Source of the DNA: Novosphingobium chloroacetimidivorans
Lineage (GTDB): Bacteria; Pseudomonadota; Alphaproteobacteria; Sphingomonadales; Sphingomonadaceae
Assembly (NCBI RefSeq): GCF_014204535.1
Contig: NZ_JACHLR010000011.1
Location: forward strand, 1-64,000
Direction of reading: 5' to 3'
DNA length: 64,000 nucleotides
Position numbers and translations under genes: made by a program. Position 1 is the stretch's first letter. Each line of letters starts with the position of its first letter. Under the pieces are notes generated by a model. That model was not told the origin of the DNA, did not search any database, and worked only from the letters and a program-made list of their open reading frames with translations. Shown here piece by piece: positions 59,934 to 62,678 of the stretch.

Positions 59934-62678
59934 TTGAACGCCTCGACTCCCACATCCGCCCGCTTCGTCAACATCGGCGAGCGCACCAACGTCACCGGCT
60001 CGGCGAAGTTCAAGAAGCTGATCATGGCGGGCGACTACCCCGCCGCGGTCGAGATCGCCCGCCAGCAGGTCGAGAACGGCGCGCAGGTGATCGACGTCAA
60101 CATGGACGAGGGCCTGCTCGACGCGGTCCACGCCATGACCACGTTCCTCAAGCTGATCGCCGCCGAACCCGACATCGCCCGCGTGCCGGTCATGGTCGAC
60201 AGTTCGAAGTGGGAGGTGATCGAGGCGGGCCTCAAGTGCGTCTCGGGCAAGCCGATCGTCAACTCGATCAGCATGAAGGAAGGCGAGGCGCCGTTCCTGG
60301 AAGCCGCGCGAAAGTGCATGGACTACGGCGCAGCCGTCGTCGTCATGGCCTTCGACGAGGTCGGCCAGGCCGATACCAAGGAGCGCAAGATCGAGATCTG
60401 CGAGCGCGCCTACAAGCTGCTCACCGGCATCGGCTTCCCCCCGGAGGACATCATCTTCGACCCCAACGTCTTCGCGGTCGCCACCGGCATCGAGGAGCAC
60501 AACAACTACGGCGTCGACTTTATCGAGGCGGTTAAGGTGATCCGTGAGCGCTGCCCGCACGTCCACTTCTCGGGCGGCTTGTCCAACCTGTCGTTCTCGT
60601 TCCGAGGCAACGAGCCGGTGCGGCGGGCGATGCATTCGATTTTCCTCTATCACGCCATCCCCGCCGGACTCGACATGGCGATTGTCAACGCCGGGCAGCT
60701 CGACGTCTACGACCAGATCGATCCCGAACTGCGCGAAGCGTGCGAGGACGTGATCCTCAATCGCCCTGCCCGGTCCGAAAACGAGACTCCGACCGAGCGC
60801 CTCGTCACCCTCGCCGAGAAATTCCGCGGCACCGATGCCGTCGCCGAAAAGTCGGCCGAGGAATGGCGCGGCTGGGAAGTGACCAAGCGGATCGAGCATG
60901 CACTGGTACGCGGCATCGACGCCTATGTGGTCGACGATACCGAGGAAGCCCGCGCCGCGATCTTCGCGCGCGGGGGGCGTCCGATCGAGGTCATCGAAGG
61001 CCCGCTGATGGATGGCATGAACGTGGTCGGCGACCTGTTCGGATCGGGCAAGATGTTCCTGCCACAGGTGGTCAAGTCCGCCCGCGTGATGAAGAAGGCG
61101 GTCGCCCACCTGATCCCCTTCATCGAAGCGGAGAAGCAGCCGGGCGCCAAGGCCAAGGGCCGGATCATCATGGCCACCGTCAAGGGCGACGTCCACGACA
61201 TCGGCAAGAACATCGTCGGCGTGGTCCTGCAGTGCAACGGCTACGAAGTGATTGACCTCGGCGTCATGGTCCCGTGGTCGAAGATCCTCGAAGCCGCCAA
61301 CGAGAACGATGCCGACATCATCGGCTTGTCGGGCCTGATCACCCCCTCGCTGGACGAGATGGTGACCGTGGCCGAGGAGATGCAGCGTTCCGAGATGAGC
61401 ATTCCCCTGCTGATCGGCGGCGCCACCACCAGCAAGGTGCACACCGCGCTGCGCATCGACCCGGCCTACAAGGGACCGGTGATCCATGTGCTGGATGCCA
61501 GCCGGGCGGTGGGCGTCGCCTCGCAGCTCTTGTCGGACACCCAGCGCGACGATTTCGTCGCCAACACCGCCATCGACTACAACCGCGTGCGAGAGGCGCG
61601 TGAGGGCAAGGGGCAGAGCGACCTGCTGCCGCTCGCCGAGGCCCGCGCCAACGCCTTCGTGCCCGACTTCGCCGACAAACCGCCGGCGCCTGCGCAGCCG
61701 GGCGTTCACGTGTTCGAGAATTGGGACCTGGCCGACCTGGTCGACATCTTCGACTGGACCCCGTTCTTCCGCGCCTGGGAACTGGCCGGCACCTATCCCG
61801 CCATTTTGACCGACGACGTGGTGGGCGAGAGCGCAACCAGCCTCTTCGCCGATGCCCAGGCAATGCTGGAGACGATCGTCTCGGAGAAGTGGCTGACCGC
61901 CAAGGGGGTCTGCGGCTTCTGGCCGGCTCGGCGCGACGGGGATGACGTGATCTTGTCCTCCCCGGCACGGGGAGGGGGACCGGCGCAGCCGGTGGAGGGG
62001 ACTCTCCACCAAGCGCCGCGCTCTGCCGAGACTCCCCTCCACCATCCTGCGGATGGTCCCCCTCCCCGTACCGGGGAGGAACTTGAAGTGCGCCTGCCCT
62101 TCCTGCGCCAGCAGTTCAAGAAATCGCGCGGCCGCGCTAACTTCTGCCTGGCCGACTTCATCGATCCCGCCGGCGACTGGCTCGGAGGTTTCGCGGTCGG
62201 CATCCACGGCATCGAACCGCACCTCGCCAGGTTCCAGGCGAGCCATGACGACTATTCCGACATCCTGCTCAAAGCCCTCGCCGATCGCTTCGCCGAAGCC
62301 TTCGCCGAACGCCTGCACCAGCACGTTCGCACCACGCTGTGGGGTTACGCGCCGGGCGAGCAGCTGACCAACCATGCCCTGATCCGCGAGGAGTACCGCG
62401 GCATCCGCCCCGCGCCGGGCTACCCGGCCTGCCCCGACCATTCGCTGAAACCCATCCTGTTCGACCTGCTTCGGGCGCAGGACAACGCTGGCATCGTCCT
62501 GACCGAAAGCCAGGCGATGCTGCCGACGGCCGCTGTCTCGGGCTTCTACTTCGCGCATCCCGAAAGCCAGTACTTCGGCGTCGCCCGCATCGGCCGCGAC
62601 CAGGTAGAGGACTATGCGGTGCGTCGTGGAGTCGAGTTGCCGGTGGCCGAGCGCTGGTTGCGCCCGAACCTCGATTAA
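59934..62678 (+). CDS. metH: methionine synthase, folate/cobalamin/activation half (split MetH), with in-frame repeat insertion
   Basis: 914 residues from TTG 59934 (CGGAG eight bases upstream). Domains: pterin-binding ([40 protein letters not shown]), cap, cobalamin-binding ([20 protein letters not shown] with the cobalt-ligating His; [20 protein letters not shown]) and the activation domain ([40 protein letters not shown]). Within the activation domain, after [13 protein letters not shown], about 42 codons (residues 675-716; [20 protein letters not shown] and on to PPPRTGEE) derive from a palindromic repeat, before homology resumes with [20 protein letters not shown]. The frame is kept, so the enzyme may still work. 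Confidence 0.93.
61956..62080. repeat. family-A palindromic repeat inside metH
   Basis: TCCTCCCCGGCACGGGGAGG opens the element and CCTCCCCGTACCGGGGAGGA closes it, with GGTGGAGGGGACTC and GACTCCCCTCCACCATCC between. It is the same unit as at 44776-44932 and 20152-20225, but here it lies fully inside a coding sequence and keeps the frame open. Confidence 0.92.

Follow-up and report, generated by a model that had tools for sequence, protein, structure and literature searches.

Palindromic repeats of several families appear to have landed recurrently, in frame, in one loop of sphingomonad methionine synthase

The cobalamin-dependent methionine synthase (MetH) of Novosphingobium chloroacetimidivorans most probably carries, in a tolerant loop of its activation domain, an in-frame copy of a mobile palindromic repeat that adds about 41 residues to the protein, and this loop is likely to be a recurrent landing site for several repeat families; we put the probability of this reading at roughly 0.86. 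The stretch of DNA analysed, hereafter the window, spans 64,000 nucleotides, and its relevant features are listed in Table 1.

Table 1. Features of the window that bear on the palindromic insert in MetH (window positions)
Feature	Position	Strand	Basis
MetH2, cobalamin-dependent methionine synthase: pterin-binding, B12-binding and activation domains	59934..62678	+	ORF; Pfam PF00809, PF02607, PF02310, PF02965; TIGR02082 above cut-off
MetH1, separate homocysteine methyltransferase half, putative	58178..59272	+	ORF; name by reading the sequence
Palindromic element, family A, 125 bp, in-frame reading of 42 residues	61956..62080	+	repeat search, folding; absent at the syntenic place in G058
Left outer arm of the palindrome	61956..61981	.	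inverted repeat, 96% complementary
Right outer arm of the palindrome	62055..62080	.	inverted repeat, partner of the left arm
REP-like small hairpin CCTCCCC-ggcac-GGGGAGG, left end	61957..61975	.	direct repeat; 18-copy alignment
REP-like small hairpin, right end	62061..62079	.	direct repeat; 18-copy alignment
Second family A copy, intergenic	44774..44923	-	BLAST match; codon-model class "between" (L003)
Family A unit cluster, intergenic	19908..20211	.	BLAST matches, merged; codon-model census (L202)

The MetH2 frame is open throughout the element, in agreement with the initial annotation, which had described the insert as lying in frame. The predicted protein passes the NCBIfam model TIGR02082 (metH) with 1129.8 bits against a cut-off of 1010.85, and fails PRK09490 (1419.8 against 1497), of which only model positions 357-1230 are covered. 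The ORF between the two metH genes (59274-59792) codes, by reading, for a GNAT acetyltransferase-like protein. An AlphaFold model of the activation domain, with a shallow alignment of 14 same-genus rows, reached a mean pLDDT of 41.9; because this confidence is low, the label "loop" rests on the alignment and on the variable length of the segment.

The insert belongs to a repeat, designated family A, that is dispersed in the same genome, where its occurrence between genes had already been noted: it gives 120 BLAST matches (both strands counted), which merge into 61 intervals over 38 fetched stretches. The outer arms of the MetH copy measure 26 nt each and are 96% complementary, and the RNA of a 136-nt stretch with the element folds at -104.2 kcal/mol (z = -10.2), a stability equalled by none of 200 shuffles. 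Small hairpins (CCTCCCC-n-GGGGAGG) sit at both ends and a further, inner hairpin in either half, so that the element reads as an inverted pair of REP-like units; it has no gene of its own. Across 18 aligned copies the outer arm is near-invariant, three pairs of the inner right hairpin have changed on both sides, and the compensatory changes in the inner hairpin amount to 16 double-change cells, a value as high being found in none of 500 shuffles; on account of this arm and these changes, the palindrome seems to have been kept as a structure. Two of the five measures in the covariation test were ordinary, the count of both-side-changed pairs being matched in 82 of 500 shuffles and that of further pair types in 478 of 500; moreover, 8 of the 18 copies have a disrupted inner pair, the same one in each.

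Family A also recurs as a composite in which a gap of about 90-100 bp separates a first unit, of about 148-158 bp, from a second of about 54 bp (loci L184, L189, L190, L191, L192 and L195), and it was found in 15 records of the plasmid collection, all of them from Sphingomonas or Sphingobium. By eye, more palindromic or half-palindromic repeats lie between aligned blocks of the window, at 12042-12286, 14815-14963, 16896-16978, 35373-35533, 39604-39911, 49775-49934 and 59804-59946. An Rfam search with the element returned 19 matches up to an E value of 10, all under the gathering score and mostly to microRNA models, and these microRNA-like matches were discarded as chance hairpin likeness. RAYT was set aside as the mobiliser because PF01797 has no match in this genome (control search positive in 5 of 14 genomes).

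At the corresponding place the element is absent from the closest relative compared (G058), whose MetH is 94% and 96% identical to MetH2 over two matched stretches. The loop that follows GDDV has 51 residues in the window protein and 10 in that of G058; the extra segment, which the initial annotation had placed where other MetH proteins continue directly, is confirmed, and its estimate of about 42 added residues becomes 41. Contig C69 of G058 shares synteny with the window, and at the MetH place 138 window bases face 15 in G058 between aligned blocks; the tree neighbour of G058 has a likewise empty loop. Most simply, the element would have been inserted in frame after the split from this relative rather than lost in the latter. 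No target-site duplication was readable by eye at MetH or at the other empty window sites in comparison with G058, which is too diverged. Elsewhere in the window, about 12 kb (21401-33473) is missing from the syntenic G058 contig, and at the intergenic points 49775 and 16896 the palindrome of the window species differs, by eye, from that of G058.

Within the genus, the MetH loop was read or bounded in 165 genomes, namely 91 of the 99 genomes G000-G098 and 74 of the 80 genomes G099-G178, and a palindrome occupies it in nine of them. Outside the 165 are eight genomes of the first set (three without a match, three partial and two cut by a contig end) and six of the second (no match), and G179-G194 lay outside the loop survey. 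The nine inserts comprise family A in G000 and G075, a variant of A in G113 and G165, family B in G031 and G105, and family C in G034, G107 and G148; at the same place in G026, a tenth genome, a palindrome is cut off by the end of the contig. Residues homologous to the insert are not shared by all sphingomonads, 111 of the 137 distinct loops being 10-15 residues long, and seven Novosphingobium have a long (31-residue) non-palindromic loop, mutually alike. Among the 96 distinct loops of at least 15 residues, for which z was computed, the 14 palindromic ones range from -2.5 to -11.2 and the other 82 from -2.2 to +1.9. The reading pattern missed 8 of the 177 loci (L021, L067, L102, L126, L131, L138, L143 and L246), five of which were then read from the tblastn frame, and two further inserts came from rows missed in this way. 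In L021 and L067 metH stops at a contig end; L246 (G134) has a normal loop and comes from a frameshift-rich assembly: its metH is broken by several frameshifts, which are probably sequencing errors, and the rest of the stretch is normal.

Outside the genus, the named set includes one family A insert shared by Sphingomonas faeni and Sphingomonas sp. Leaf208 (L103, L111), a family B insert in S. gilva (L153) that is itself invaded by a second palindrome, and inserts in four MAGs (L102, L125, L142 and L143). The nesting in S. gilva lies at 3019-3300 of the locus, and the DnaE2 loops L229 and L251 are seemingly nested in a similar manner. In the family-level search, 373 of the 397 genomes drawn were matched, and the best 29 loci outside the genus, all readable, gave 13 loops at z -4 or lower and a weak one at -2.4 (L306). 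The latter can be recognised as family B and was therefore counted; L305 (z -2.5) was left out because its peptide resembles non-palindromic loops with z near zero. The loop peptides of L294 and L306 are the same as those of L102 and L142 of the named set. In total, 28 insert-bearing metH genes were collected (nine from the genus, 14 from the family-level set and five from the named set only), with the S. faeni/Leaf208 insertion in common between its two strains and L143 included as a palindrome seen by eye, without z. Only the genus count of 9 in 165 is near unbiased: the loci of the family-level and named sets took the highest ranks in similarity searches whose query itself carried an insert, which enriches both sets for inserts.

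These other assemblies bear on whether the repeat was simply misjoined into metH. Repeats do break assemblies, and the metH and dnaE2 contigs of G026 end inside palindromes; however, because the same loop is filled in other assemblies, some of them single-contig (G113, G288 and G297), an assembly error, a possibility considered in the initial annotation, is very improbable. The window insert moreover lies deep within a 148-kb contig, and the two Sphingomonas strains hold one insert in common.

By eye, at least five types of repeat occupy the loop. The families were assigned their letters by eye and differ in sequence, with TCCTCCCC... for A, CCCTCTCCCCT...AGGGGAGGGG for B and GTTCGTGTCGAGC... 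for C; further types are a CGTC-like one (L143 and L320), also labelled by eye, and another in L301. Searches for dispersal in the hosts themselves covered A, B and C. Family B has 35 matches in G031 and 73 in G105, and family C 74 in G034, 84 in G148 and 22 in G107 (both strands in each case, with a few matches to the flanking metH bases). The family C query has one match in G113 and none in G165, both of which have type A inserts. In the genome of the window, the B and C matches, among those listed, coincide in position with none of family A.

A native, lineage-specific expansion of the loop, GC-rich and palindromic by chance, would be in keeping with the long non-palindromic loops that are alike in some relatives, such as the 31-residue loops of the seven Novosphingobium and the HRSPDGAS and AAHVLPEHEVRL groups of other genera. 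For the window insert it is refuted by the dozens of matching copies in the same genome, and those inserts of families B and C that were tested likewise correspond to dispersed repeats, though of other kinds; we give this explanation practically no weight. Long loops that are not clearly palindromic and are alike within groups (L012-L014, L080, L081, L243 and L244; L148 and L168; L305, L307 and L316) could be native, or old worn inserts.

When mapped onto a tree of 142 rows, computed with the loop left out, the presence of palindromes is patchy: it needs at least 11 gains or losses by parsimony, and 18 changes are needed when all loop classes are separated. Support for the tree is moderate, 20 of its 138 inner branches being starred, and the starred branches alone force two changes for A and one each for B and C; G000 forms a starred set with two empty rows. 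The points of insertion in the loop differ by about one codon or more between species.

As regards the fate of the interrupted gene, the dN/dS of MetH2 is 0.057 after the insert (195 codons) and 0.075 before it (663 codons). Pfam PF08267, which matched 10 of 14 genomes in a control search, detected no MetE in this genome, whose completeness is 99.95%, and because this canonical enzyme was not found, MetH is probably the sole methionine synthase of the genome, as judged by the PF08267 search only. From the two dN/dS values and the absence of MetE by this domain, the MetH2 gene looks still functional, and the insert is most likely translated as about 41 Pro/Gly-rich residues that MetH would tolerate. 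Alternatively, the insert might escape translation, through excision from the transcript or through ribosomal bypass, or might sit in a dying gene. The extreme RNA hairpin of -104 kcal/mol would suit such a fate, and bypassed palindromes are mentioned for a yeast mitochondrion in PMC6649704, but the 28 MetH inserts are in frame and free of stops (which the reading patterns required), no out-of-frame insert occurs among the 165 genus genomes with the loop read or bounded, all 29 family-level loci are readable, and the codons past the insert are under purifying selection in a genome where MetE is missing by PF08267. We therefore consider non-translation quite improbable.

The reading of PPPRxGE peptides in frames leading into genes was also part of the initial annotation. 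It holds in part, for the 932-codon frame at 44899 (GlnD by reading); five more intergenic matches to PP(P/L)(R/L/P)xGE occur in the window, and from these the next stop is 28-337 codons away. The suggestion that the element is suited to being translated finds moderate support in 25 full-length intergenic copies, in which 3.92 of the six frames are open on average. Dinucleotide shuffles give a mean of 3.17 (sd 0.21), and none of 300 reaches the observed value; because the copies are related, this test overstates its strength.

MetH is one of several host genes. In a census that relied on a home-made codon model (training set, 29 ORFs of the window) in place of a standard gene caller, 58 of the 61 family A intervals fell between genes and three inside them (MetH, DnaE2 and TruB). 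A screen for long ORFs through the copies gave ten, of which nine, without a Pfam family, were taken as chance ORFs, DnaE2 alone having one; TruB was lacking from this screen and came from the census. For DnaE2, 38 loci less four unread and two duplicates left 32 distinct loops, mostly top-ranked by likeness to an insert-bearing query, and 24 of the 25 loops of at least 30 residues are at z -2.2 or lower. With an uninserted query, 78 of 80 genomes were matched and 13 have a long insert at the DnaE2 loop; two of these, in G044 (z -1.0) and G026 (cut by contig ends), lack support by z for being palindromic. At this site the palindrome of G058 differs from that of G000 and is perhaps a related subtype. 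For TruB (188 genomes matched of 194 searched), 27 of the 30 top-ranked loci are at z -2.2 or lower, among them L291, which resembles two non-palindromic long loops and maybe has no insert.

The other families have hosts of their own. The census of family C in G034 covered 35 places (29 between genes, four inside and two overlapping gene ends), with MetH, ValS, GlyS and an acyl-CoA dehydrogenase-like ORF as hosts. That of family B in G105 gave 45 intervals between genes, one overlapping and 11 inside seven genes, namely MetH, TruB, ValS, IleS, GlyS, UbiG and an E2 acyltransferase-like ORF; of the 40 places that it took in, six had been chosen for family C, and five gave no match to the family B query. 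The names of the acyl-CoA dehydrogenase-like and E2 ORFs rest on matches under the NCBIfam cut-offs. In ValS, different families occupy nearly the same site in G034 and G105, the breaks falling at 473 and 471 of 863 positions (TIGR00422), or at 468 and 460 of 860 (PRK05729). By eye, IleS (L388, 3-2687) and ValS (L380, 2-2785) of G105 each contain several palindrome-derived peptides, CGTC-like ones beside those of family B.

We propose that a dispersed palindrome entered the variable loop of the MetH activation domain in frame, after the lineage had split from the closest relative compared. The loop would be a recurrent landing site for different palindrome families in Novosphingobium and other sphingomonads, as would single loops of DnaE2 and TruB and one ValS site in two species. 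Most insertions in genes should be purged by selection, and those that keep the frame in tolerant loops would persist, so that the survival of a copy is probably decided by the tolerance of the protein together with the low stop density of the repeats. The palindromes themselves seem quick to move and turn over, because both species have different palindromes, by eye, at the intergenic points 49775 and 16896.

Tolerance of this kind explains the pattern without a targeting device, but given how often the same few loops recur, targeting or element-on-element exchange might also play a part. The few loops might, beyond being tolerant, be targets at the DNA or protein level to which elements are directed or at which they are exchanged, as could be expected from the presence of different families in the same loop of MetH, DnaE2, TruB and ValS, from the palindromes seen by eye within palindromes in S. 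gilva MetH and the two DnaE2 loops, and from the two intergenic sites with one family here and another in the relative. However, the further genes struck in two species (GlyS at different sites, IleS, UbiG and the E2 acyltransferase-like and acyl-CoA dehydrogenase-like ORFs) fit tolerance, the insertion points in the MetH loop vary among species, and the native loop is empty in most relatives read, so prior occupancy is not needed; we hold targeting to be rather unlikely.

Rickettsia palindromic elements (RPE) are about 100-150 bp in size. They are protein-coding palindromes (Ogata et al. 2000, 2002, as cited in PMC6649704), and RPE-1 interrupts truB in R. conorii (PMC3733652). The elements described here are like RPE and intragenic REPs in kind, and we claim membership in neither. 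The resemblance to RPE suggested by the initial annotation is supported by the dispersal, the empty site in a relative, the open frame and the purifying selection downstream. Like RPE, family A is dispersed and mostly intergenic, with some copies in frame within conserved genes without obvious gene loss; the in-gene copies in MetH, DnaE2 and TruB are absent from orthologues, as from the MetH loop of G058; and truB is a host both in R. conorii and here. Unlike RPE, the present repeats are GC-rich and belong to sphingomonads, several families share one loop, and MetH was not found named as a host in the papers searched.

Intragenic REPs were described by Di Nocera et al. (2013), who reported REP units and dimers inside genes, many of them DNA repair genes (PMC3733652). 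The hosts that they name include DnaE2, truB and tRNA synthetases, and in two Xanthomonas they note that recB carries different REPs at roughly one position. REP-like units in DnaE2, truB and tRNA synthetases are a likeness to these GTAG/CGTC REPs, and the MetH insert L143 and the family-level insert L320 look CGTC-tagged by reading. In contrast, neither tag is present in the 18 aligned copies of family A, which start with (T)CCTCCCC (TCCTCCCC in the window copy) and end with GGGGAGGA. GTAG REPs typically go with a RAYT, of which this genome has none by PF01797, and here one loop is used by several families genus-wide, a sharing that section 15 of PMC3733652 describes for recB only. MITEs and enterobacterial RU elements are small non-autonomous repeats with some intragenic copies (PMC2759123, PMC2229807); for the present elements, no target duplication was readable against the diverged G058, and PF01797 gave no transposon-like partner. 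The word "methionine" is absent from the main text of PMC3733652, the full host list of which is its Additional file 3. Among the matches listed in the open-licence literature there was no report of a palindrome in methionine synthase, and open-licence papers searched for palindromes of sphingomonads, or for palindromes in frame, yielded nothing or only unrelated work. As far as the literature was searched, MetH as a host and the convergence of several families on one loop, across the genus and beyond, are apparently new.

More tentatively, a few enzyme loops (those of MetH, TruB, DnaE2, ValS and others) might form a safe harbour for palindromes spreading in GC-rich alphaproteobacterial genomes, with occupants that swap over time; the loops may be preferred or subject to exchange, and may even be the same from Rickettsia to sphingomonads. 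We see this as a possibility that falls well short of being probable; if true, essential enzymes would carry a changing, host-specific peptide of selfish origin. The debate on whether intragenic selfish palindromes are harmless passengers or a source from which new protein parts arise has drawn largely on Rickettsia, bacteria that are hard to work with. Here, the same phenomenon is met in free-living bacteria, several of them cultured, with many different inserts in one loop of well-studied enzymes and with empty-loop relatives as controls; the question therefore becomes directly testable by biochemistry and proteomics, and the many inserts per loop may serve as natural replicates for measuring how much an enzyme loop tolerates.
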